64,000 nucleotides of DNA from Wenzhouxiangella sp. XN201 (GTDB taxonomy: Bacteria > Pseudomonadota > Gammaproteobacteria > Xanthomonadales > Wenzhouxiangellaceae). Shown in pieces: positions 5,349-49,029 of the stretch. Where the stretch lies: NCBI RefSeq assembly GCF_011008905.1, contig NZ_JAAIVI010000017.1, positions 372,001-436,000 of the forward strand, in the 5' to 3' direction. The notes under the pieces are model-generated. The model did not search any database. It was not told where the DNA came from and was given only the letters and a program-made list of their open reading frames with translations. Numbering within the stretch: position 1 is the stretch's first letter; each line of letters begins with the position of its first letter. Both the position numbers and the translations under genes were made by a program.

Positions 5349-5524
5349 TCAGGTCTCCGGTCGCGCTGCCCCGTCGGGGGCATACGTTGGCGTACGTTCG
5401 GGGAACCCAGTAGGATACCGTGTTCGATGTTTCGATGCGTCGGGAATGCCGCAATTGCCTTGATAGTGGCCTCCCGAAGCCCAACAATCAATATCGAAAC
5501 TCACTTAATCAGGTTCTTGCACGC

Positions 5525-6427
5525 ATGTCTCTAGACCCCGCCGTTCGCGAAAAGATCGAAACGCAGATTGCCTCCCACCGCGTGGTGCTCTACATGAAGG
5601 GTACCCCCAAGATGCCGCAGTGCGGTTTCTCGGCCAAGACCGCCGGCATTCTGGATCAGCTGCTGGAGGGCGATTACGCCAGCTACAACGTGCTCGAGGA
5701 CGAATCGATCCGCGAGGGCATCAAGGTCTACGGCGACTGGCCGACCATCCCGCAACTCTACATCGACGGTGAACTGGTCGGCGGCAACGACATCATCGGC
5801 GAGATGTTCAACACCGGCGAACTGCACGAAATGTTCGGGCTGGAAAAGCCCGACCGCACCCCGCCGGAAATCACCATCACCGACAAGGCGGCGGTGAAGA
5901 TCCGCGAGTTTCTCGAGGCCTACCCTGGCAACCACCTGCATTTCGCCATCGACGCCGGCTGGGACGCTCAGTTCCAGGTCGGGCCCAAGGAGGGCAGCGA
6001 GATCGAGACCGAGTCGAACGGCATCACCGTGCTGATGGACCTGGCCAGCGCCCAGCGCGCCAAGGGTGCGACCATCGACTGGGTCGAGACCGTCCAGGGA
6101 GAAGGGCTCAAGCTCGACCTGCCGGGCGCGCCGGCACCGGTCAAGCAGATGACGCCGGCCGAACTGCAAGAGCGCATGAATTCGGGTGAGCGGCTTCTGG
6201 TGATTGACACCCGCAGCGAGACCGACCGCGCCGAAAAGCCGCTGGACTTCGCCCGAGTGCTCGATGCCGACCTGATGGCCGAACTCAAGGACGGCGATCC
6301 CAACCAGCCGCTGGTGTTCGTGTGCAACATCGGTCAGACCTCGCAGCAGTATGCCGAGCATTATCGGAAGCAGGGATATACGCAGGTGTATAACCTGGAG
6401 GGTGGGGCGCAGGCGATTCTGGGGTGA
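5525..6427 (+). CDS. Monothiol glutaredoxin / A-type-carrier-like / rhodanese fusion
   Basis: A 300-aa protein with three parts. Residues 1-105 are a Grx4/GrxD-type monothiol glutaredoxin with active site CGFS (C33). Members bind a glutathione-ligated 2Fe-2S cluster and act in iron-sulfur trafficking. Residues about 115-200 resemble an IscA/ErpA-like fold (PPEITITDKAAVKIREF) but lack the three metal-binding cysteines. Residues about 210-300 form a rhodanese-like domain with a candidate catalytic C267 in VCNIGQTS. I chose the ATG at 5525 because the glutaredoxin homology begins there. An upstream in-frame ATG at 5420 would add 35 unconserved residues. The gene is divergent from gltB, whose product needs Fe-S clusters. 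The glutaredoxin call is secure; the middle domain is inferred. Confidence 0.88.
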   Translation: MSLDPAVREKIETQIASHRVVLYMKGTPKMPQCGFSAKTAGILDQLLEGDYASYNVLEDESIREGIKVYGDWPTIPQLYIDGELVGGNDIIGEMFNTGELHEMFGLEKPDRTPPEITITDKAAVKIREFLEAYPGNHLHFAIDAGWDAQFQVGPKEGSEIETESNGITVLMDLASAQRAKGATIDWVETVQGEGLKLDLPGAPAPVKQMTPAELQERMNSGERLLVIDTRSETDRAEKPLDFARVLDADLMAELKDGDPNQPLVFVCNIGQTSQQYAEHYRKQGYTQVYNLEGGAQAILG

Positions 6428-6493
6428 ATCGCCGCGCTTGGCGTTTCTTTGCCTTGGGCGTTGGATTGGCTGTTGCCACTGGGCGCAGTGGCG

Positions 6494-6537
6494 CCCTCGA
6501 CAGGTCAAAGGCGATTTCGCCCGCCTGCTTCGCAGGC
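6494..6537 (+). repeat. Repeat family R2, copy a
   Basis: A unit starting CCCTCGACAGGTCAAAGGCG and ending in a small GCCTGCTTCGCAGGC hairpin. Its sequence matches copy d (7163-7206), which lies in the opposite orientation. Confidence 0.7.
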
Positions 6538-6594
6538 TAGTCCACTGAATCCTGTGGCGCTGGGCAGTGCGTTGCTACTGCCAGGTTGGCGGGT

Positions 6595-6637
6595 CTCGAC
6601 AAGTCAAAGGCGGTTTCGCCCGGCTTGCTTCGCAAGC
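6595..6637 (+). repeat. Repeat family R2, copy b
   Basis: Same orientation as copy a. Shares TCGACAAGTCAAAGGCGGTT and a terminal GCTTGCTTCGCAAGC hairpin. The match to the inverted copy c continues beyond the hairpin into a TTTTGTC/GCGACAAAA block. Confidence 0.7.
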
Positions 6638-7083
6638 TCTTTGGGCGAGTAACTTTTGTCAGTCGCGACAAAAGTCACCAAAAACGCTCTTACAAGACGC
6701 GGTTGGTCCGCAGGACCAGAGGTCTTCTGGGCTTAACGGAGATACCGCTTTTGCCTTCGCTCTTGCTCGGTCGTCAAACATGGCGTTTTCGATAAAGGCT
6801 TGGCGTAGCCCGCACCCAGATTGCACGACCTCGATCAGCGTCGGCTTCGATTGAAGGTGGGACAAGCTCTCAGGGTGGTACGCCACTCGAAGTCGTTGTG
6901 CCAGATGCGGGCCGCTGCAGGCGTCATCGTAAGCCAGCATGTTCGGCAGCCGGGCTCAAGCGAAGCCCCAGTCGTAGTTTGTGAAGCCACTCCGACCAGG
7001 TACTCCTGAGACGCGACCGTCATCTTTTAAGCGCATTTTTTGGGTGCTTTTTTGGCGCGACAAAAAAGTACCTCGCCGCAAGT

Positions 7084-7128
7084 GCGCGCGAAGCGCGCCG
7101 GGCGAAACCGCCTTTGACTTGTCGAGGG
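7084..7128 (-). repeat. Repeat family R2, copy c
   Basis: Inverted copy of the R2 unit. On the minus strand it reads CTCGACAAGTCAAAGGCGGT and then a GCGCGCTTCGCGCGC hairpin. The loop and stem bases differ from copy b while pairing is kept. Confidence 0.7.
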
Positions 7129-7162
7129 CCGCACCGCGGCAAGTGGCGTCAACCAATCCTGC

Positions 7163-7206
7163 GCCCGCGAAGCAGGCGGGCGAAATCGCCTTTGACTAGT
7201 CGAGGG
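7163..7206 (-). repeat. Repeat family R2, copy d
   Basis: Second inverted copy, close in sequence to copy a, reading CTCGACTAGTCAAAGGCGAT on the minus strand. The hairpin is GCCTGCTTCGCGGGC, with one substitution relative to copy a. Confidence 0.7.
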
Positions 7207-7407
7207 CGCCACGACGCCCGGTGGCATCAGCCAACCCAGCGGCAGCGAGTTGGCAAACCAGCCCCTGCAAATGGCTCGATTTCACCCCCCGCAACGTATG
7301 ACTATTCAGGAAGGGAGTTTTGACTCGACACCTGGGTCAGCGCTATGTTCCGGGGTGTGCTGGTCGGCGACTCCGCGCATTCCATGAGTCACACCAGGGA
7401 GGCTGTC

Positions 7408-8280
7408 ATGTGGATCAAGCGGACTTTTAAGTGGATCGGACTGACCTTGCTCGGTATTGTCGGTCTGGCGGCGATTGCGGTGATTCTTGTCTACATCCTC
7501 ATGGGTCGTGATCTAGCCAGGAGCTACGACATCACGGGTGAAGACATTGCCGTGCCATCGGATGCAGCGAGCATCGAGGAAGGTCAGCGCCTGGCGCAAT
7601 TGCGAGGCTGCTCCGGTGGTTGTCATGGCAGAACTACGACTGGCGGGGTGATGATCGAGTTGTTCGACGGGACCCGGGTCGTGGCACCGGATCTTGGGGA
7701 ACTTGCTGCGCGCTACTCCACCAAAGACCTGGAGCGCGCGATCCGCCACGGCGTAAAGCCGGACGGCACTAGCGTCCTTCGCATCATGCCGTCGGAAATG
7801 CTTTCAACCCTCAGTGATCGGGATCTGGGCCTGATCCTGGCCTATCTGCGCAGCCAGCCGGCAGGCGAGCAGACCCTTCCGGAGTCGAGGTATGGACCCG
7901 TTGCCCGAGTCATGGGATTCTTCTTCAAGCGGAAATTTGGATCACTTCTTGCGGCCGAAGTGATTGACCATCAACATTCGCCGCCGCCTGAACCTTCCGA
8001 TGAAGAAGCTTACGGACGTTACCTGGCCAATACGGTCTGCACCGAGTGCCATGGCAGCGATCTACGCGGTTCGCCTGATGGCTCGACGCCCAGTCTTGCC
8101 GTCGTACTGGCGTATTCGCGCGAGGATTTCGAAACGCTTATGCGAGCTGGGGAACCGCTGGGCGGACAAGAGTTGGGGCTGATGGCCGGTGTGGCCAGAT
8201 CCCGATTCGTGCGTTTCACCGACGATGAAATTGCCGCACTGCACGGGTATCTCAGTTCCCCGGATAACTGGTCGGATTGA
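7408..8280 (+). CDS. Membrane-anchored diheme cytochrome c with a CX3CH motif
   Basis: A 290-aa c-type cytochrome with one N-terminal membrane segment (residues about 9-32) and two periplasmic cytochrome domains. The second domain has a standard heme site, CTECH (C211, C214, H215). The first reads CSGGCH (C68, C72, H73), with three residues between the cysteines instead of two. The bases there are unambiguous and the frame continues normally. Methionines after each site (for example IMPSE near residue 128) are possible axial ligands. The start at 7408 has AGGGAGG about six bases upstream, better than the upstream in-frame starts. It probably carries electrons between membrane oxidoreductases. 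No partner enzyme is adjacent, so the pathway is unknown. Confidence 0.85.
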   Translation: MWIKRTFKWIGLTLLGIVGLAAIAVILVYILMGRDLARSYDITGEDIAVPSDAASIEEGQRLAQLRGCSGGCHGRTTTGGVMIELFDGTRVVAPDLGELAARYSTKDLERAIRHGVKPDGTSVLRIMPSEMLSTLSDRDLGLILAYLRSQPAGEQTLPESRYGPVARVMGFFFKRKFGSLLAAEVIDHQHSPPPEPSDEEAYGRYLANTVCTECHGSDLRGSPDGSTPSLAVVLAYSREDFETLMRAGEPLGGQELGLMAGVARSRFVRFTDDEIAALHGYLSSPDNWSD

Positions 8281-37058: not shown

Positions 37059-38147
37059 ATGAATGATTCGGACCGAAAGCTCGTCGCGGTCGACATCGTG
37101 GCGGTACCGGAAACGGCCGGTTCGGCCTTGTACGGCATGGTCGACGTGCTGTCGGCAGCCGGCGAACTGTGGCAGACACTGACGCATGAATCGCCCGCTG
37201 AAAGGCGCCTGGGTGTGCAAATCGTGGCACCGGCCCCGGGGATGTTTCGATGCGGGCACGGGGTGCCGGTCGTGCCGGAGAAAACGATTCTGCAGGGACC
37301 GGCTGCGCCTGTCGTCATCCTCCCGGAACTCTGGCTGGGTCCCGAGGAATCCTTTCACGGCCGGTACCCGGAGTTGATGACCTGGCTCAAGGCTGCCTAC
37401 GCTGCCGGTTCCGAGATCTACTCAGCCTGCTCCGGCGCGATCATGCTGGCCGAAAGCGGGCTGCTCGACGGTTGCGCCGCCACCTCTCACTGGGGCTACC
37501 GGGCGCTGTTCGAGCGCGAATACCCACAAATCGACTTCCGGCCCGAACCCAATCTGGTCGTCGCCGATGCCGAGGGCCGCATCGTCACCGCCGGCGGCTC
37601 CACCTCCTGGCATGATCTGGCGCTGCACATCATCGCCCGGCACATCAGCCCCGGGGAGGCCTTGCGCATCGCCAAGGTCTATCTGCTCAAGTGGCACGGC
37701 GAGGGTCAGCTCCCCTTCGAGCCGCTGGTCCGCGACACTCTGCATGCCGATGCAGCCATCCGGCGCTGCGAGGGATGGCTGGCCGACCACTTTGCCGACG
37801 AGGCGGTGATTGCCGGGGTCACCGAATACTCGGGGCTGGCGGAGCGAACGCTCAAGCGGCGTTTCAAGCGGGCCACCGGCGTGACGCTGAAAGACTATGT
37901 GCAGAATCTGCGGGTCGAGGAAGCCAAGCAGCTGCTCGAGTCGACCGGCGAGCCGGTCGACGAGATTTGTGCCCGCGTCGGTTACGAGGATGAATCCTTT
38001 TTCAGGCGGCTGTTCAAGCGCCGGACCGGCCTGACGCCGGCCCGCTACCGGCGACTGTTCCGGCCGGTGGCACGTCTGGCGGAGCCGGCGCCCGCCGAGG
38101 GCGCTCAGTCCAGAGTCAGTTCCGGCGCGGGCGCCCGCAGGTTGTAG
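37059..38147 (+). CDS. GATase1-AraC transcriptional regulator (GlxA-like)
   Basis: A 362-aa regulator. Residues about 8-185 form a DJ-1/PfpI-like domain with a nucleophile-elbow cysteine (C124 in SACSGA). Residues about 255-350 form an AraC DNA-binding domain with two helix-turn-helix motifs, ending VGYEDESFFRRLFKRRTGLTPARYR. Such regulators sense small metabolites or aldehydes; the ligand is unknown. The start at 37059 places the DJ-1 domain at the N-terminus. It is divergent from osmC and its 3' end overlaps the convergent lysA-like end by 43 bp. Confidence 0.9.
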   Translation: MNDSDRKLVAVDIVAVPETAGSALYGMVDVLSAAGELWQTLTHESPAERRLGVQIVAPAPGMFRCGHGVPVVPEKTILQGPAAPVVILPELWLGPEESFHGRYPELMTWLKAAYAAGSEIYSACSGAIMLAESGLLDGCAATSHWGYRALFEREYPQIDFRPEPNLVVADAEGRIVTAGGSTSWHDLALHIIARHISPGEALRIAKVYLLKWHGEGQLPFEPLVRDTLHADAAIRRCEGWLADHFADEAVIAGVTEYSGLAERTLKRRFKRATGVTLKDYVQNLRVEEAKQLLESTGEPVDEICARVGYEDESFFRRLFKRRTGLTPARYRRLFRPVARLAEPAPAEGAQSRVSSGAGARRL

Positions 38148-40702
38148 TGCGAGGCCATCGCCGCGCCGTAGGCGCCCGTGTTGGCGATCAGCATGATGTC
38201 GCCTTCGCGCGAGTCGGGCAGCAGTCGATCGAGGCCGAGGATGTCGCCGCTTTCGCAGATCGGGCCGACCACGTTGTAGACGCGGTTGCCGCCCTCGTCC
38301 AGGCGCGAGAGGTTGACGATTTCGTGCCAGGCGCCGTAGAGCGCCGGGCGAATCAGGGAGTTCATGCCGGTGGCCAGGCCGATGTAGCGCACATCGCCCT
38401 TGCCCTTGGTCTGGGTTACCCGGGCCAGCAGCACGCCGGCGGGTGAGACGACGTAGCGTCCGGGCTCGATCCAGATGCGCACCGAGCTCGGCAGCTGCTT
38501 GCGCAGTTGTGCCAGGCCGCCGTCCATGGCGGCGATGTCCAGCGGCAGTTCGTCGGCTCGATCCGGCACACCCAGGCCACCGCCGAGGTTGATGATTTCG
38601 ACCGAGTCGATACGCCGGGCGGCCTCGCCCAGGGTTTCCAGGCTGCGGTGCCAGTTGTCGGCATGCATGATGCCCGAGCCGGTATGGGCGTGCAGCCCCC
38701 TGATTCGAATATCGTGGGCGCGACACAGGGTCAGGGCGCGATCGAGTTCGCTTAAGGGGATGCCGAACTTGGCATGGCTGCCGGCGGTCCGCACCAGCTT
38801 GTGATGGCCCAGCCCGGAGCCCGGATCCAGGCGCAGGAAGACCGACTGGCCGGCCAGGTCGCTGCCCCAGTGCTCGAGTACGTAAAGGTTGTCGATGGTC
38901 AGCGGCAGGCCCAGCTCGACGGCCTGGCGATACTCGGCACGACCGGCAAAGTTGGGCGTGAACAACATGTCCCCTGCCGCAAGTCCGTTGACGGAATCGA
39001 GCGCGCGCCGCGCCTCGTTGAGCGAGACGCACTCGATGCCCAGTCCGGCATTGACCGCGGTGCGCAGGATTTCCGGATGCGGATTGGCTTTCATCGAATA
39101 GAGCACGCGATCGACCGCGCCGAGTGACAGCAGCCGCTCGCAGGCAGCGCGCACGCTCGGCAGGTCATAGACGTAGGCGCATTCGCGGCCGTCCATCAGT
39201 TTGATCAGTTCCTCGCGGCGCGTTTGCCACCACGGTTTGGTTGCGACCGGGCCGGCGTCGTTGCGGAACAACTGCTCCCAGGTCGGGCCGAACACCGAGT
39301 CGCCGCCGACGCCGCCGGGAATGACTTGCTGGTGCAGCTGCTGGACCAGGCGGTCGGCGTGGCGCGATTCGACGACAAAGGTGAGGTTGAGGTCGTTAGC
39401 CGCCTGGCTGACCTGGAAGATGCGGCGTTGCTCGAACACTTCCAGCGCCGGGCCGAGCCGGTGCAGGATCGTGCGGATGCCCAGCCCGACCAGGCTGACG
39501 GTCGCGCAATCGCTCAGGATCTCGACCTTGCACAGCTTGCCCAACTCGCGGGCGAGTTCCTCGAGCACGGGTCGATCGGCCACGTTGGCATCGGGATCGA
39601 GCGTGAGTGTCACGTTCGACTCCGATGTGGAGACCTGGTCGACCGACAGGTCGAGCCGCCGGAACACCTCGAACACCGCGGCCAGAAAGCCGACCTGCTG
39701 CCACATGCCGATATCTTCGAGCGAAACCAGGGTAATCGGCTTGCGCTGGACGATGGCCTTGACCTGGGCACCATGCTCGCGCGCCGCCGGTGTAATCCGC
39801 GTGCCCTCGATGTCGGGCCGGTCGGTCTGGTGCATCTTGATTTCGATGCCGTGTTCGTGGGCCGGAATCAGCGCTGCCGGATGCAGGGCTTTGGCTCCCA
39901 TGGCGGCCAGTTCCTGGGCTTCGCGGAAGCCAACCTGCCTGAGCAGGCGGGCACCCGGCACGTGCCGCGGGTCGGCCGAGAACAGGCCGGGTACGTCCGA
40001 AAAGATGTCCACGGTATGGGCGCCGAGCACCGCTGCCAGCGATGTTGCCGAGGTGTCCGATCCGCCGCGTCCGAGCAGCACCGTCTCGCCGCCGGGATTG
40101 GCGGCGATGAATCCGGGCATCACCCAGACCCGGCTCTTCTTGGCCAGGCTTTTCGCTTTTGCCGGATCGGATTGCGGTCGGCAACGTGCCGACAGGTAGC
40201 GCGCGCGTCGGGAGCGCGACTCGGTCTCGAAGCTGACCAGAAGGTCGCGGCTGTCGAGCCATTGCGCAGCGACGCCGTCGAGCTCGAGTCGAGCCACGCT
40301 CAATCGGCTCGACAGTCGTTCACCAAACGCCAGCAGTTGGGCCTGTTTGGCCGGGCTGCTTGAATCGTACTCGCCGTCCAGGAAGGTCTGGAGCGCTGCC
40401 AGCGTTTCGTCGAGTGCGCTTGGGTCCAGCCCGCATTCTTCGAGTAGGCGCCGATGACGCTGGCCCAGTTCGGCCAGCAGCACCGCGTTGTCGGCTTGTG
40501 CACCATCGTCGATATGCGCCTGCAGCCGGTCGGTCACGCCGCGCAGGGCCGAAACGACCACTACCACGGGTTGCCCCTGTTGGCTGAATTCGCGCACTCG
40601 CGCGACGATGTGCGGCCAATTTTCGGCGCGTGCCACGGAGCTGCCACCGAACTTGAGGATGCGCCAGTGTGTCGTTGCGGCCGTCGGGATTTGCGGGTTC
40701 AC
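38105..40702 (-). CDS. lysAC: Bifunctional aspartate kinase / diaminopimelate decarboxylase
   Basis: An 865-aa fusion of the first and last steps of lysine synthesis. Residues about 15-470 are aspartokinase: KFGGSSV, GRGGSDTSATSLAAVLGA and ACT-type regulatory segments. Residues about 490-865 are DAP decarboxylase: PLP-binding lysine in YSMKANPHPE, EPGRYVVSPAGVLL, CESGD and YGAAMASHYN. The fusion is known from Xanthomonas and Xylella relatives. Possible starts are GTG 40702 and GTG 40765; I prefer 40702 because only 13 residues precede the kinase motif there, but neither has a clear ribosome binding site. It is divergent from the PP2C gene. Confidence 0.95.
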   Translation of the reverse strand: MNPQIPTAATTHWRILKFGGSSVARAENWPHIVARVREFSQQGQPVVVVVSALRGVTDRLQAHIDDGAQADNAVLLAELGQRHRRLLEECGLDPSALDETLAALQTFLDGEYDSSSPAKQAQLLAFGERLSSRLSVARLELDGVAAQWLDSRDLLVSFETESRSRRARYLSARCRPQSDPAKAKSLAKKSRVWVMPGFIAANPGGETVLLGRGGSDTSATSLAAVLGAHTVDIFSDVPGLFSADPRHVPGARLLRQVGFREAQELAAMGAKALHPAALIPAHEHGIEIKMHQTDRPDIEGTRITPAAREHGAQVKAIVQRKPITLVSLEDIGMWQQVGFLAAVFEVFRRLDLSVDQVSTSESNVTLTLDPDANVADRPVLEELARELGKLCKVEILSDCATVSLVGLGIRTILHRLGPALEVFEQRRIFQVSQAANDLNLTFVVESRHADRLVQQLHQQVIPGGVGGDSVFGPTWEQLFRNDAGPVATKPWWQTRREELIKLMDGRECAYVYDLPSVRAACERLLSLGAVDRVLYSMKANPHPEILRTAVNAGLGIECVSLNEARRALDSVNGLAAGDMLFTPNFAGRAEYRQAVELGLPLTIDNLYVLEHWGSDLAGQSVFLRLDPGSGLGHHKLVRTAGSHAKFGIPLSELDRALTLCRAHDIRIRGLHAHTGSGIMHADNWHRSLETLGEAARRIDSVEIINLGGGLGVPDRADELPLDIAAMDGGLAQLRKQLPSSVRIWIEPGRYVVSPAGVLLARVTQTKGKGDVRYIGLATGMNSLIRPALYGAWHEIVNLSRLDEGGNRVYNVVGPICESGDILGLDRLLPDSREGDIMLIANTGAYGAAMASHYNLRAPAPELTLD

Positions 40703-40825
40703 GTTGTGGTCGTTTCGAGTGGGTTCGCTGTGGAGGTAAAAATCGGCTATTCTGGCCGAAAACACGGTCAGGCCGCCGTGACAGGCGGGCCGCAGACACC
40801 GGAAATTCTACGCGATACGACAATC

Positions 40826-43038: not shown

Positions 43039-43830
43039 ATGGTTTCACGCCGCATCAAGCTCCACGGTTTCAACAACCTGACCAAGGCACTGAGCTTCAA
43101 CATCTACGATCTGTGCTTTGCCACTTCCAGCGGCGAGCGCAAGGACTACATCGCCTATATCGACGAAGCCTACAACGCCGAGCGGCTGACGCAGATCCTG
43201 ACGGACGTCTCGCACATCATCGGTGCCGACATCCTCAACATCGCGCGCCAGGACTACGAGCCGCAGGGCGCGAGTGTGACCATGCTGATTGCGGAGGAGC
43301 CGGTCGAAAATGCCGGCGAAGCCGGTTTGGCCGCGCCCGGGCCGCTGCCGGAGTCGGTGGTCGGGCACCTCGACAAGAGCCACATCACGGTTCACACCTA
43401 TCCGGAAAGTCATCCGCATGACGGCATCTGCACTTTCAGGGCCGACATCGACGTGGCGACCTGTGGCGTGATTTCGCCGCTGAAGGCACTCAACTACCTG
43501 ATTCACAGTTTTGAGTCCGACATCGTCACGGTCGACTATCGGGTGCGGGGCTTCACCCGTGATGTGCGCGGCCGCAAGCATTTCATTGACCACAAGATCA
43601 CCTCGATCCAGGACTACTTCAGCCGCGATACCAAGAAGGCCTACGAGATGATCGACGTCAACGTCTACCAGGAAAACCTGTTCCACACCAAGATGCGGCT
43701 CAAGGAGTTCGAACTGGACAACTACCTGTTCGGCATCAACGCCAACGATCTCGAAACACGCCAGCGCACTCGCATCGAGAAACGCCTGCGCAAGGAGATG
43801 CAGGAGTTGTTCTATGGGAGAAATCTGTAG
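43039..43830 (+). CDS. speD: S-adenosylmethionine decarboxylase proenzyme
   Basis: A 263-aa SpeD of the E. coli type. It makes decarboxylated AdoMet for spermidine synthesis, using a pyruvoyl group formed by self-cleavage. The cleavage site is Lys113-Ser114 in [14 protein letters not shown]; the serine becomes the pyruvoyl. ATCGV (about residue 152) is also conserved. The ATG at 43039 is the start of homology; the longer frame from 42946 has no support. No spermidine synthase (speE) is adjacent. Downstream lies the palindromic block. Confidence 0.94.
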
Positions 43831-44323
43831 GGATAGGCTGGTCGGGCGCGCCGAAATCGCCGCTCACTCCCACGACTTGCCCGGCTGCAGAATCGGCTGA
43901 TTCAGCAGCCGGGTTCCCTGCGGTTCTCGCCTCACGCGGGGCCCGCCTCAACTCGCTACGAGCCTTCGGCTCTCCGCTCAAACATCGGCGGTCCTTGATC
44001 CGCGTGAGCCTGCGATCCTCGGCTGCGTCGAAGTCGCGAGCGCCGATTTCGGCGCGCCCTTGCATCTGGTGGAGCGTGTGTCACGGCATGTGAGGGTCAG
44101 GCCGGCACCTGTTTTCGCGACTTCGACGCCGCCGAGAAGCGCAAAGCCGATCGGAACAAGGGCCACCGATGTCTGAGCGGAGGGCCGAAGGCCCGTAGCG
44201 AGTTGAGGTGGACCCCGATCGGCTTGAGCATCGCAGGGTATCCTCCCGCGAAATCGCACGATTTCACGGGAGGACAAGTCGCGGGAGCGAGAACAGGTGC
44301 CGGCCTGACCCGGTCCTCATTCG
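43831..44323. repeat. Nested inverted-repeat block beside the SbcC-like gene
   Basis: About 490 bp without coding capacity. Main feature: arms of about 98 bp at 43943-44040 and 44113-44212, inverted with about 72 bp between, best conserved over the outer 45 bp (43946-43990 against 44163-44209). Each arm contains a small hairpin (GAGCCTTCGGCTC in one; its counterpart reads GGGCCTTCGGCCC), a pair change that keeps pairing. Other structures are a 32-nt hairpin at 43881-43912, an inverted pair 43844-43858/44045-44059, an inverted pair 44096-44118/44286-44309 and a hairpin at 44241-44273. It lies between speD and the 3' end of the SbcC-like gene. Confidence 0.7.
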
Positions 44324-47300
44324 TCAGCTCTGGTGGTTCGAGAGCGGATCATCGATGGCGCTGACCACCCACTCGCGCAGGTCGGCGGCTTCTTCTGCTG
44401 CCAGGCCAGTGCGGCTGGCGATTTCGGCGGCGGTGATGGCGGGGTGGTCGGGATGCAGGGCGAGGTAACGGTTGTCGACCAGCCATTGCTCGAGCGCTTC
44501 GGTGGTGTCATTGCGGAAGCGGCTGACCTGGCCGGCATGCAGGCCCTCGATGAGCCGGACGGGATGCCCGCCGACCTCGTCAACCAGGTCGAGTACCCGC
44601 GGCATGAACGTATCGGTGATCTGGCCGAAGGCACTCAGGGTTCCGGCGTCGACCGGACGGTGATGACGGGCTCGCCAGTCATCGAGGATCAGGGCTGCAG
44701 CATTGCAACGTCGTTTGAGCAGGTCGCGTTCGTTTTCGTCGATGATCGAATCGTCTTCTTCGCTGTCGATGTAGCCGCTCAGCTCGCCGACTCGGCCGAG
44801 TTCGACCCGCATCAGTCTTGCGGCGAGTTCGAGCCGGTCGTGGAGCAGGTGGAAGACGCTGACCATACCGGTGCCCAGCCAGGGATTGATGGCGCTGATG
44901 CCGGCTTCCCGGGCCCAGGTTTCCGGGTCCTTGTCGGCCGGCTCGGGCACCTCGCGACGGCGGCTCTCGCCCGCCGGCATGGCCAGCTTGAGGGGCTCCA
45001 CCTGGCCGCGCCGGACCTCGGCCATATCGACGGTATGCGGCTGTGGCCCGTCGCCGGCCCAGGCAGCCCAGGCGGTTGCCTCGTCGCTTTGGGCGGTGAG
45101 GTAGAACATCTGTCGTCCGCCAGCAACGATTTCCTGGACCGACTGCACCACCAGCTGGTAGCGGTCTGGATCGGAGGTGGTCAATACCTCGTCCATGAAC
45201 ACCGGCAGCGGTTCGCGGTTGCGCTCGGCCTGCTCGATCCAGGCCAGCCTGAGTGCCAGCAGCAGCTGTGCCCGGGTCGCGGTCGAGAGCTTGGTCAGCG
45301 CCAGCGCCCGCTCGGCGCGCGTGTCGTAGGCCTCGAAGAACTCGCCGCCGAAGCGCAGACGGTAGCGATGCCGAGTGAAGCGTTCGAACCACTGGCCGGC
45401 GCGGCGCAGCGTGGCCGGCTCGTTGTCGGCCTGGTGGGCACTGCGAACGTCCTCGACCATGACTTCGCCGGCAATGGCCAATAGCTGGGCCTCGAAGTCT
45501 TCTTCCAGTTGCTGCCGGCAGTTCTCGTAGCGCCCGGTCAAAGCCTGCAGTTCGCGCCGCTTGACGAGGTCCTCATGCCGGGTATGGATGGTGGCGATGT
45601 GGCGGTTGAGTTCGTCGCGGCGCGCGGCCTGTTCGGCCAGTTGCTCGCGCTGCTGCTCGAGCGCATCGCGTTTTTGTTCACGGGCCTGCTTCAACAGTGC
45701 CACGTCGCCTTCCAGTCGTTGCTCGAGACGGGCGACTTCGAGTGAGCGATCGCGACGTTGTTGCTCGAGCTGGCGCCACTCCTCGAATTGCTCGATGCGC
45801 TGCACCAGGGTGTCATGGGCGCCGGGTTTCAGACCGGCCTGTTCGAATACCTGTCCGTGGCGCTCATCGAGCATCTTGATGTCGGCTTCGAGTTCGCCGA
45901 GCCGGTGGCGGTGCGCCTGGATTTCGTTGTGCAGCTCGGCGTTGGTGCGCATGCGCGGCGTCAGTTGGTGCAGCACGGTGGCGAGCTTGCGGCTGGAGAC
46001 GTCGTCCAGGGCTTCGAATCCATGCCGCTCAAGGAGTTTGGTGGCCTGGCCGCGGGCACTGGCGTGGGCCGAGCGGGCCTGCTCGAGCGACTTTTTCTGT
46101 TTTCGGACTTCTTCGTCAGCGCGTTGCCAGTCGTGCAGGTAGCGCGCCCAGAGCAGGAACCCGGCGTCCATGCGCGGTTCGGCGCTCAGGCCGTGCTTGC
46201 CGGCTGCCTCCTCCAGGCGGGTGCGCGACTGCTCCAGGTTGTCACGCTCGAGGTTGAGTCGGTCGCGCAACTCGATGGCGCGATTGTGCTGCACCTCGCG
46301 GCTGGTGGCCGCGGCCAGTTCCTGTTCGAGTCGCTCGAGCCGTGATTCGACCTCGCTCTCGGCCCAGCTCAGCGGCGCTTCGACCTCGCTGGCCAGAAAG
46401 CGCGAGCGGGCCGCGGCCAGGTAGCGATAGCGCAGCACGAAGCGCACCAGCAATGCGGCCGGAATGCCGACTGCCAGGGCGATCAGCAGCACCAGTTCAC
46501 CGAAGGGCTCGATCTCGCGCGGTCCGAGCATTCGCCAGCCGGCCAAAACAGCCGTCAGGGTGAGTCCGCCCCAGAGCACGCCCTCGAGGCCGCTCAGGCG
46601 TGCGTGTTCGAGCCAGTCGACCAGCGCGTCGCGTGCCTGGAGCAGCGACTGGGCGGTGTCCGGGGAGGCGCTGCCGGGTACGTGCAGGCGCGCCAGTTCG
46701 GCGCTGATGGCGCGCAGTTTCTCGCGCTGGTCGAGGACCTTGTCGACTTGGCGCTCGATGTGCTGGACGTCGTCGGGCGTCAAGGCACCGGGTGGTTCTT
46801 CCTTGTGCTGCCCGCCCAGCCGGGCAGCGGCGCTTTCGCGTTCGGCCAGCGCCTGTTCCAGGGCACTGGCATGCTGGTCGATACGGCGCTCGATGTCGGC
46901 CAGGGCATCGCGCCGGTCGGCCAGTTCGGCCTGCACGGCTTCGAGCTGTTGCGGGTCGACGCCGCCGCTGGCAGTCAGTCGTTGTTCGGCTTGTTCCAGC
47001 GCCTGGCGGGTCAGGTCGATGTCCTTGCGGCGCTGGGCAAGCTGCTCGTCGATCTGGTCGAGACGGGTGAGTTCGTCCCCGCGCAGGCGGTCCATGCCGC
47101 CGGGAAACTCCTCGATCAGTGTGTTTTCCAGCGCCGTTCGCGCAGCGATTGCGTCGGCCAGTGCCAGTGCGTCCTCGCAGGCGCGCAGGCGGGTGGCCGC
47201 ATCGCCGGTGGCCGCAAACTCGGCTTGCAGCGCGTCGAGCCGGTCAAGTTCATCCTTGAGACTGTCGTACTCGGCTTGCTTCTCGTCGATCGCGCGGGCC

Positions 47301-47776
47301 AGGTCGGCGAGTTCACGCGAGCGCTTCTGTGGTCGGGGTGGCCGGACCAGCGGGGCTTCGGCCCGGACCGCGTCGAGGTCGTAGCCGCCGGCCAGCAGGG
47401 TCCGGACCTGGCCGGCGATGTGTTCCTCGGTGTCGCCCAGGCGGGCCAGGTCCTCGGAGCTGACCAGGTAGGCACCGATGCTCTCTGCGGCGGGCAGGGG
47501 CGGCGGCGGTGCCGGTTCGCTGCCTTCCAGCCAGGTGACCTGTTCGCCATGGCGTTCGCATTCCAGTGTTCGCTCGCCCAGTCGCCAGTGGGCCCGGATG
47601 TGGCAGAACCCCGGTGTGAGTTCCGGGTAAAGCAGGGCGCGGACGGCTCGTACGATGCTGGACTTGCCCGAGGCATTGGGGCCGGTGATGAAATTGACGG
47701 CATCGGGCGCAAAGCGGATCGAGACCGGGCCTTCGAGCCCGGCCAGCGAGCGAATGTCGATGCGCTCGAGCTTCAC
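44324..47776 (-). CDS. SbcC/YhaN-like SMC-type ATPase with membrane segments
   Basis: A 1150-aa protein of the Rad50/SbcC group. Walker A GPNASGKSS is at residues 32-40, the ABC signature-like LSTATRAQLLLALR at about 825 and Walker B VFMDEVLTTSD at about 858. Long coiled coils cover residues about 130-400 and 450-760. At the hinge (about 402-447), where SbcC has a zinc hook, there are two hydrophobic membrane-type segments, as in Bacillus YhaN. A further 220 residues after the ATPase head (about 930-1150) form an unidentified helical domain. It overlaps the SbcD-like gene by four bases, so the two are coupled. The predicted role is processing of DNA ends or hairpins, perhaps at the membrane. 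Confidence 0.88.
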   Translation of the reverse strand: MKLERIDIRSLAGLEGPVSIRFAPDAVNFITGPNASGKSSIVRAVRALLYPELTPGFCHIRAHWRLGERTLECERHGEQVTWLEGSEPAPPPPLPAAESIGAYLVSSEDLARLGDTEEHIAGQVRTLLAGGYDLDAVRAEAPLVRPPRPQKRSRELADLARAIDEKQAEYDSLKDELDRLDALQAEFAATGDAATRLRACEDALALADAIAARTALENTLIEEFPGGMDRLRGDELTRLDQIDEQLAQRRKDIDLTRQALEQAEQRLTASGGVDPQQLEAVQAELADRRDALADIERRIDQHASALEQALAERESAAARLGGQHKEEPPGALTPDDVQHIERQVDKVLDQREKLRAISAELARLHVPGSASPDTAQSLLQARDALVDWLEHARLSGLEGVLWGGLTLTAVLAGWRMLGPREIEPFGELVLLIALAVGIPAALLVRFVLRYRYLAAARSRFLASEVEAPLSWAESEVESRLERLEQELAAATSREVQHNRAIELRDRLNLERDNLEQSRTRLEEAAGKHGLSAEPRMDAGFLLWARYLHDWQRADEEVRKQKKSLEQARSAHASARGQATKLLERHGFEALDDVSSRKLATVLHQLTPRMRTNAELHNEIQAHRHRLGELEADIKMLDERHGQVFEQAGLKPGAHDTLVQRIEQFEEWRQLEQQRRDRSLEVARLEQRLEGDVALLKQAREQKRDALEQQREQLAEQAARRDELNRHIATIHTRHEDLVKRRELQALTGRYENCRQQLEEDFEAQLLAIAGEVMVEDVRSAHQADNEPATLRRAGQWFERFTRHRYRLRFGGEFFEAYDTRAERALALTKLSTATRAQLLLALRLAWIEQAERNREPLPVFMDEVLTTSDPDRYQLVVQSVQEIVAGGRQMFYLTAQSDEATAWAAWAGDGPQPHTVDMAEVRRGQVEPLKLAMPAGESRRREVPEPADKDPETWAREAGISAINPWLGTGMVSVFHLLHDRLELAARLMRVELGRVGELSGYIDSEEDDSIIDENERDLLKRRCNAAALILDDWRARHHRPVDAGTLSAFGQITDTFMPRVLDLVDEVGGHPVRLIEGLHAGQVSRFRNDTTEALEQWLVDNRYLALHPDHPAITAAEIASRTGLAAEEAADLREWVVSAIDDPLSNHQS

Positions 47777-49029
47777 CGTGCGTCCTCGTGCTGATCGGTC
47801 AGGCGAATCAGGGCCAGGCGGCTGGCGCGCTTCAGCCAGGCGGCGACGGTGTCGTCGTCGAGTGACTGGTCCAGATCCCGGAATTCGCGCGAACCGATCA
47901 ATGGGCTCATGGCTTCACGGCCGCGCTGGACCAGGCGATCGTACTCTTCGCTGTCGGGCGCCTCGAGCGCCAGCAGCCGTCGCGCGAGCAGGCCGCGCGG
48001 GTCGGACTGGCGGGCCAGGCGCTTGAGATCCAGCTGCGGCAGCAGCGCCGACTCGATCTTCTGGATAAAGCAGGCGATGCCGGCCTCGTTCCACGACCGG
48101 CCGTCGGCGGCCAGTTCGCCGGCGGCCGCCGTGATCTCGCTGGCCCGGCCGCTTTGTCCCGTGAGCGTGATGCGAAAGCCGACCGCCAGCGGCGGTTCAT
48201 CGTGCTCGGCCAGGCCCTGGATGCGATCGCGCGTGCCGGCCAGAATGCGTTCGCCGAGCCCGGCGGCATCGTCGAGTTCGGTGCAGTCGATTTCGATGGC
48301 TTCATAGCGCATCGGTGCGAGGGGTTGGTGCTCGGCGGTGATCTTCTGTTTCCCGACCTGCAACAGCCAGGGCCCGCGCGGCCCGGTTTCTGAAGCGCGC
48401 AGGGCGGTGACCGAGCCGAGATAGCCGATCGGCCGATCGCCGTCGAGCCGGTCGGGGCGATGAATGTGGCCGAGTAGCCAGGCGTTGACCGGTGTGGCCT
48501 CGAGTTCGCTCGTGCTGACCGGAGCGTAAGGGCTGTCGGCCTGATCGAGATCGCAGTGCAGCAAGCCGATGACCGGGTACTTGCCGCGCTGGATTTGGAG
48601 CTTCGACAGTGGGCTCTGGCGGACCTGCTCGCGCGGAAACGACCAGCCGACAATGTCCAGGTTGCCGAGGCGGCGTGTCTGCCATTCGCCGCCGGCGCCG
48701 AGCAGTTCGAGGCCGTCGATTTCGTCGGCCAGCCGCGGCAGGATAAGCGTGTCGTGGTTGCCGGCGACGGCCAGTACGGGTATGTCGGCAGCCACCAGCT
48801 GCTCGATGCCGGCCTTGAGTTGGCCGTAGCCGACGAAGAAGTCGCGACCCTGATCGACCAGGTCACCGGCGAGCAGCACGGCGTCCACGTTACGGTTCAG
48901 GGCAAGTTCCACGCAGCGCGTCCAGGCCGCTTCCGGGCCGAGCGCGTCGCGCCGCCGGTCGAGATCCTCCGGGATCGCTGACGGCGGCCGTCCAAGATGC
49001 ATGTCGCCGATTGCAAGCAGCGTGGTCAC
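47773..49029 (-). CDS. SbcD/YhaO-like metallophosphoesterase nuclease
   Basis: A 418-aa calcineurin-like phosphoesterase with the Mre11/SbcD motif set: GDMHLG (residues 8-13), AGDLVDQG, AGNHD, LLHCD and LLGHIHRPD. The C-terminal 150 residues are helical and probably bind the partner ATPase. It is the catalytic half of a two-gene complex; its stop overlaps the start of the ATPase by ATGA. The pair resembles YhaO-YhaN of Bacillus more than E. coli SbcDC. It is the first gene of the pair; upstream is an ABC-F gene on the same strand, about 60 bp away. Confidence 0.9.
   Translation of the reverse strand: MTTLLAIGDMHLGRPPSAIPEDLDRRRDALGPEAAWTRCVELALNRNVDAVLLAGDLVDQGRDFFVGYGQLKAGIEQLVAADIPVLAVAGNHDTLILPRLADEIDGLELLGAGGEWQTRRLGNLDIVGWSFPREQVRQSPLSKLQIQRGKYPVIGLLHCDLDQADSPYAPVSTSELEATPVNAWLLGHIHRPDRLDGDRPIGYLGSVTALRASETGPRGPWLLQVGKQKITAEHQPLAPMRYEAIEIDCTELDDAAGLGERILAGTRDRIQGLAEHDEPPLAVGFRITLTGQSGRASEITAAAGELAADGRSWNEAGIACFIQKIESALLPQLDLKRLARQSDPRGLLARRLLALEAPDSEEYDRLVQRGREAMSPLIGSREFRDLDQSLDDDTVAAWLKRASRLALIRLTDQHEDAR

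Follow-up and report, generated by a model that had tools for sequence, protein, structure and literature searches.

Genomes are expected to tolerate large inverted repeats poorly. In E. coli, hairpins are removed by SbcCD, and imperfect heterodimers may escape cleavage (PMC3733652, in the portion of the article available). The same portion places REPs at gene 3′ ends and lists GTAG families in two Thioalkalivibrio strains. Single REP units have been proposed to be remnants of doublets (PMC3116915, available portion), and a review of bacterial MITEs cites an element of this kind in Polaromonas JS666 (PMC10969869, available portion).

The window (the whole stretch of DNA analysed, 64,000 nucleotides) contains a giant imperfect palindrome that occupies the entire gap between the stop codons of speD and of the SbcC-like gene convergent with it. 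The preliminary description treated this gap as one nested palindrome. A better description is that of a single structured unit present in two inverted copies, arranged divergently with their 5′ sides facing each other. The features of the locus are as follows; both cores were scored with covariance model R1, which was built from 16 units including these two.

43048–43830, plus strand: speD, E. coli-type S-adenosylmethionine decarboxylase, the upstream neighbour (TIGR03331, 476.7 bits, cut-off 255.8)
43831–44323, no strand assigned: intergenic stretch, giant imperfect palindrome (from gene ends, inverted repeats and folding)
43844–44059, minus strand (canonical orientation): unit A, about 216 nt, with terminal inverted arms 43844–43876 and 44027–44059 (arms and fold)
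43880–43913, minus strand: side hairpin P3 of unit A (inverted-repeat search and fold)
43913–44026, minus strand: conserved core of unit A (model R1, 117.7 bits; unit in the training set)
44060–44093, no strand assigned: spacer of 34 bp between units A and B (from the sequence)
44094–44311, plus strand (canonical orientation): unit B, about 218 nt, with terminal inverted arms 44094–44127 and 44278–44311 (arms and fold)
44128–44241, plus strand: conserved core of unit B (model R1, 119.1 bits; unit in the training set)
44241–44274, plus strand: side hairpin P3 of unit B (fold; coordinates read from the sequence)
44324–47776, minus strand: SbcC/Rad50-like ATPase, the converging neighbour, outside the element (SMC/Rad50/AAA-type matches, all below cut-off)
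47773–49029, minus strand: SbcD/Mre11-like metallophosphoesterase, outside the element (PF00149, 47.7 bits, cut-off 21.5)

Elsewhere in the window, an open reading frame of 886 aa (38105–40765, minus strand) reads by eye as an aspartate kinase joined to a second half that is diaminopimelate decarboxylase-like, and we take it to be a fused lysine-pathway protein.

A repeat search identifies inverted arms at 43863–44039 and 44115–44291 that are 177 nt long, 74% complementary and separated by a 75-nt spacer. The inverted arms of the preliminary description are therefore real, but its arms of 98 bp with a 72-bp spacer were not recovered and look like the inner part of the 177-nt arms. The additional inverted pairs and strong hairpins that it reported are borne out by two nested pairs (43844–43876 with 44027–44059, and 44094–44127 with 44278–44311), by a hairpin at 43880–43913 in the repeat search and by a fold far beyond that of shuffled sequences: none of 100 dinucleotide shuffles of the gap is as stable, whether folded as RNA (z = −20.1) or as DNA (z = −15.2). 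The compensating pair that it noticed in a small apical hairpin is also present, with GAGCC/GGCTC in one unit and GGGCC/GGCCC in the other. No sigma-70-like promoter was found in 43700–44450, and no promoter- or terminator-like signals were found within the element.

Units A and B are identical at 150 of 216 aligned bases. In each, a conserved core of 32 base pairs is accompanied by a side hairpin and an outer stem. When a window unit is folded alone, the long outer stem closes a two-branch junction formed by the side hairpin and a long arm, which is broken by symmetric purine-rich internal loops. We read the conserved internal loops as tandem G-A-like. The core measures 113–118 nt in 16 units. 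By eye, GTAG is situated inside the apical part of both window units, and neither a GTAG nor a CGTC tag is found at the unit ends. The fold plan is common to the yfiH unit of the same genome and to a unit of a relative (L044), both with other stem sequences; it was not recovered in two further copies (L037 and L050), neither of which has a long outer stem.

A search of the genome for the arm sequences, proposed in the preliminary description, locates the unit at two further loci, giving four units at three loci: the window, the site after yfiH and the site after a yigZ-like gene (these names, and pyrG below, are what we take the genes to be from reading their translations). Among 61 genomes of relatives, 18 carry a unit by DNA match, own genome counted; one of the 18 (G050) rests on a 23-nt match only. 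With the covariance model, units were found in 43 of 369 genomes sampled from the class and in 20 of 398 sampled from the phylum (own genome included in both), and all 20 carriers in the phylum sample belong to the same class. A pattern scan of named genome contigs returned at least 120 stretches; 66 of the 80 loci listed from it contain model hits at E ≤ 0.001, by name mostly Burkholderiales and Thioalkalivibrio. Weaker model hits (29.8–39.7 bits) fall in two records named Deltaproteobacteria or Syntrophaceae and in one named Schnuerera. A contig named as a Wenzhouxiangella MAG (L125) matches a locus of G012 without a difference over 1,940 bp, and as G012 is assigned to the genus of the window, that genus is Wenzhouxiangella. 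A first pattern modelled on the window units had no match in the genome contigs, from which records near the genome of the window are possibly absent. The number of units ranges from 2 to 52 per genome in 17 chosen genomes, with 52 in a record titled Polaromonas sp. JS666. Given these 52 units, the MITE that the review cites in JS666 could be this unit family, and an earlier description of the family under that name is possible (PMC10969869, available portion). The literature searched, including searches with unit sequence strings, yielded no description of the unit, the source paper of the JS666 MITE being outside its coverage; the names Thioalkalivibrio, Wenzhouxiangella and Polaromonas are absent from the text of PMC12306157.

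Neither the phage nor the plasmid collection contains a match to the window element. A Polaromonas copy matches six plasmid records, one of which covers 74% of the copy, and since the window element finds no plasmid match in spite of these, the phage negative is weak evidence. In viral contigs the motif occurs in 3 stretches, compared with at least 120 in the genome contigs. No Rfam family reaches threshold on the units tested. With E values up to 1, the sole match on a unit is a microRNA model in the window (E = 0.006; 26.8 bits, threshold 142). For sRNA-Xcc1, considered as a possible relative, no Rfam match gives support.

Neighbouring units are predominantly divergent. All 34 neighbour pairs less than 600 bp apart have this arrangement, as do all 24 pairs in the listed rows of 8 of the 17 counted genomes; the sample of 34 overlaps the later pair samples (Polaromonas). 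In the phylum sample, with the four units of the own genome left out, 17 of 23 pairs are divergent, and the exceptions are four ++, one −− and one +−. In other genomes the doublet is a recurring block, since whole doublets align with one another. Of eight copies fetched from one genome (G171), five align over about 540 bp at 87.8–92.6% identity; among the others, one has an insert, one is of half length and one (L289) matches over only about 150 bp. Thirteen doublets of the Polaromonas record are alignable over about 500–700 bp, with 71–88% identity in the longest matches. The doublets in those other genomes have a further hairpin flanking each side. Immediately outside the units, four loci from doublet genomes (L037, L054, L151 and L285) carry a second hairpin whose stem is AAAAGTA(A)CC-like; by eye this hairpin is absent from the window pair. 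The listed units are all single in five of the six Wenzhouxiangella relatives counted (G026 has pairs), so that it is mainly other genera that support the doublet rule. Two loci of one genome (G621:C2:66888-67051 and G621:C23:170537-170747) are unusual in that their units are tandem or overlapping rather than divergent. In another genome (G139), two units 2 kb apart enclose an ORF of 470 aa; it was considered as a cargo gene, but by eye it does not read as a transposase.

Our preferred reading, held with moderate confidence, is that the window element is a dispersed, non-coding, REPIN/MITE-like non-autonomous repeat consisting of two divergent units of about 216 nt. The six non-divergent pairs among the 23 of the phylum sample count against it. 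Mechanistically, the unit in single-stranded form, either as ssDNA at replication or as its RNA, would be recognised by a trans-acting protein, and the doublet would spread as a non-autonomous element. Copies would survive mainly at gene 3′ ends, with insertions in promoters or genes being purged.

To describe the sites, we used a dicodon gene caller trained for this analysis, which recovers speD and the SbcCD-like genes. An alternative caller (29 codirectional, 13 convergent, 9 divergent, 2 inside) placed speD on the wrong strand and was discarded. Of 96 elements, 26 are in convergent, 37 in codirectional and 4 in divergent gaps, one overlaps a called ORF and 28 are at edges or in unknown context. 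The other gaps in those loci comprise 15 convergent, 68 codirectional and 44 divergent ones (convergent versus divergent, p = 3e-8). Judged from these called genes, the units favour gene 3′ ends.

The same location is part of the case for the main rival explanation, in which the unit is read through from flanking genes and acts in the mRNA as a transcribed 3′-end RNA, with 3′ protection, processing, pausing or release of a small RNA as proposed roles. A unit directly follows the yfiH stop codon, and both the tandem G-A-like conserved internal loops and the strand-specific excess of G·U pairs in the outer stems (see below) would also fit. The orientation of the units speaks against such a role: single units between codirectional genes are sense in 13 cases and antisense in 8, thus following no clear orientation rule, and the yfiH unit is oppositely oriented in two species. 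Moreover, 18 of 20 speD–sbcC gaps and 28 of 30 yfiH loci are without a unit, and the element has no promoter- or terminator-like signal. We regard this explanation as possible but doubtful; if it were true, the family would be a widespread structured RNA absent from Rfam.

The yfiH locus was followed across species. The gene was found in 35 of 37 genomes, and two of the 30 loci retrieved contain a unit. In both (G000, the genome of the window, and G003), the unit directly follows the stop codon, and the two copies share their terminal arms and have opposite orientations. The units of G000 and G003 are identical at 171 of 196 bases when one is reversed, compared with 128 of 177 unreversed; identity between the other unit pairs compared is at most 80.4%. 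An inversion in place is the simplest reading of these alignments. More generally, orthologous sites differ between species, some being occupied and others empty. The yfiH–pyrG gap of G011 and G017 (L252 and L253) and L005 (1352–1470) contain a distinct repeat-like sequence in which 'TCTCAAACAA' and 'GACCAA/CACCAA' are abundant. By eye, this TCTCAAACAA-rich sequence fills the gap where other species carry the structured unit, and in the own genome the yigZ-side unit has a comparable stretch beside it.

The preliminary description held that folding seems conserved and suggested that copies in related species be compared for compensatory changes; that comparison agrees with it. In a structure-free alignment of 16 units (MAFFT), 93.0% of cells are paired and two-sided changes occur at 21 of 32 pairs (0/500 shuffles), the structure being drawn from folds of some of those same units; no shuffle or slid register comes near the observed pairing. 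In a model-fitted alignment of 131 units, which leans toward the covariance model, 92.5% of cells are paired and all 32 pairs show two-sided changes (0/500 shuffles). In a set of 129 distinct units, a single base makes up at least 90% of the column at 22 of 47 unpaired positions, compared with 10 of 60 paired ones. The covarying stems and conserved internal loops across units indicate that the fold is under constraint.

The outer stems lie outside the covariance model and were scored symmetrically. On the canonical strand of 52 units, Watson–Crick pairs number 1851 and G·U pairs 68, beside 14 A·C and 128 other mismatches; the rest of the 131 units were left out because no stem exceeded the score limit, the flank was too short or the arms were repeated. 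Counted by locus, G·U exceeds A·C in 27 cases and the reverse holds in 3, with 11 ties. The model-fitted alignment gives 128 G·U against 35 A·C, but since that count leans to the model, we prefer the count from the outer stems. In the inner arms, scored without the model, the difference is not significant (11 G·U, 4 A·C, p = 0.12), which counts against the preferred reading of a dispersed mobile repeat. Both the strand test and the pair counts use related copies, so their p-values overstate independence.

If the constraint were on duplex DNA, G·U and A·C should be equally frequent, and the 68 versus 14 in the outer stems thus indicates that one strand matters; pairing of the outer stems is kept on one strand, as RNA or ssDNA. 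The same inequality goes against a double-strand DNA element, that is, a cruciform or a site bound by a protein, as gyrase has been proposed to bind REPs, even though the element is palindromic on both strands, folds as DNA with z = −15 and shares its 3′-end location with REPs (PMC3733652, available portion). We disfavour this explanation and consider it improbable.

Template switching in quasi-palindromes keeps arms complementary and can flip the inside. A mutational by-product of this kind, with no selection on the fold, would account for the yfiH units, in which the arm changes that separate G000 from G003 are matched on the two sides while the core is oppositely oriented. It would leave unexplained the conserved unpaired bases (the 22 of 47 columns), the presence of one core across many genera and the strand bias, and we judge it slightly less credible still. 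Despite the poor tolerance expected of large inverted repeats, the unit family keeps giant imperfect palindromes in many genomes, with the outer-stem fold preserved on one strand.

The preliminary description had called attention to the position of the palindrome at the end of an sbcC-like gene. In our searches, no match to any SbcC model was found for the SbcC-like protein at E ≤ 0.001, and the Rad50, SbcD and Mre11 models match the gene pair below their cut-offs only. In the PDB, the SbcC-like protein has no sequence match and the SbcD-like protein has two weak Mre11 matches. "SbcCD-like" is a fair but loose name for this predicted pair. We found speD in 52 of 61 genomes and retrieved 30 loci, of which 20 have a convergent SbcC-like neighbour and 10 show no such neighbour. 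Only two of these 20 orthologous gaps are occupied, namely that of the window (two units) and that of G011 (one unit); the rest are 0–155 bp long. At 116 other element loci (625,439 bases, limited flanks), SbcC- or SbcD-like genes are present only at the G011 site and near one Thioalkalivibrio unit (L132). The latter unit (1582–2022) lies about 3.5 kb from an SbcD/SbcC-like pair at 5483–7592, with 42% and 33% identity; this proximity is probably due to chance.

A functional link to the neighbouring pair, as substrate or regulator, has in its favour the adjacency in the window and the removal of hairpins by SbcCD in E. coli (PMC3733652, available portion), and is rendered highly improbable by the two occupied gaps out of 20, the copies elsewhere whose examined flanks lack such genes and the sub-threshold or missing model matches of the proteins. 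The preliminary description held that arms at many unrelated loci would mark an ordinary dispersed repeat tolerating its position, and units indeed occur at two other loci of this genome and at hundreds of positions in other genomes. The position beside the SbcC-like nuclease gene looks like coincidence, and the element occupies the speD/SbcC-like gap without a particular connection to the nuclease. A possible escape of imperfect heterodimers from SbcCD could explain how a 74% palindrome persists without a dedicated link (PMC3733652, available portion). In short, the structure is real, its relation to the neighbour is ordinary and it is a member of a widespread structured repeat family.

If this dispersed repeat family moves, RAYT genes do not point to its mobiliser, since their presence does not follow the units. 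We searched 19 chosen genomes of the 61 for Y1_Tnp (RAYT) genes. One or more are present in 6 of the 16 unit-bearing genomes in this set, and none was found in the other 10, own genome included (5 of these 10 are less than 90% complete). Two genomes (G019 and G027) have several Y1_Tnp genes and no unit match, and one (G025) has neither. A RAYT mobiliser as a present-day requirement was rejected because Y1_Tnp presence does not track units in these 19 genomes. No transposase or other mobiliser was found in the genomes examined, which counts against the preferred reading. In one Polaromonas assembly, the element ends gave 41 matches; judged by eye, 39 adjoin a unit, one falls at the end of a contig and one is a partial match of 25 nt. 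No element ends were found around any other gene among the 40 of 74 candidates scored, and broken contigs may hide a parent element. By eye, no target-site duplication is visible in the flanks listed for the G171 and G425 copies, a test weakened by ragged element ends.

The family shares some traits with each of four known systems. Like REPINs, it is extragenic and hairpin-forming, recurs as an inverted doublet and shows compensatory changes; the paper on REPINs tracks REPs as 16-mers, whereas the core here is 113–118 nt and the whole unit about 216 nt (PMC3116915, available portion). Unlike REPINs, the units have a multi-loop core with conserved internal loops and no link to a RAYT gene; the 17 genomes counted have between 2 and 52 units each. 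With GTAG/CGTC-tagged REP dimers it shares a location mainly in codirectional and convergent gaps, the dimers themselves, G–T pairs in stems and a patchy spread among species, but those REPs measure 20–40 bp and carry GTAG or CGTC as a terminal tag on one side, and in the present unit GTAG is internal (PMC3733652, available portion). Bacterial MITEs are likewise short, non-coding, intergenic and foldable, with inverted ends (PMC10969869, available portion); here no target-site duplication was seen (by eye, with ragged ends) and no parent IS was found. Structured RNAs of the kind collected in Rfam have a similar covarying fold with conserved loops, but no Rfam family matches at threshold.

Taken feature by feature, the inverted doublet of REPINs is present (34 of 34, 24 of 24 and 17 of 23 pairs), though five of six Wenzhouxiangella relatives have single units only. 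Terminal inverted repeats and a lack of coding capacity, as in MITEs, are found as well (1 of 96 elements overlaps a called ORF, with 28 of the 96 at edges or unknown), and so is a covarying structure on one strand, as in structured RNAs. A RAYT gene in the genome (not found in 10 of 16 unit-bearing genomes tested) and a short tagged hairpin of 20–40 bp are not among its features. We suggest, only tentatively, that the units could form a class of mobile structured elements distinct from RAYT-REPINs and IS-derived MITEs, with a multibranched single-strand fold and conserved loops, divergently duplicated and carried through the Gammaproteobacteria, Burkholderiales included, by some protein or via an RNA intermediate. 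The family fails two defining tests of RAYT-mobilised REPs, but it works like REPINs and MITEs.
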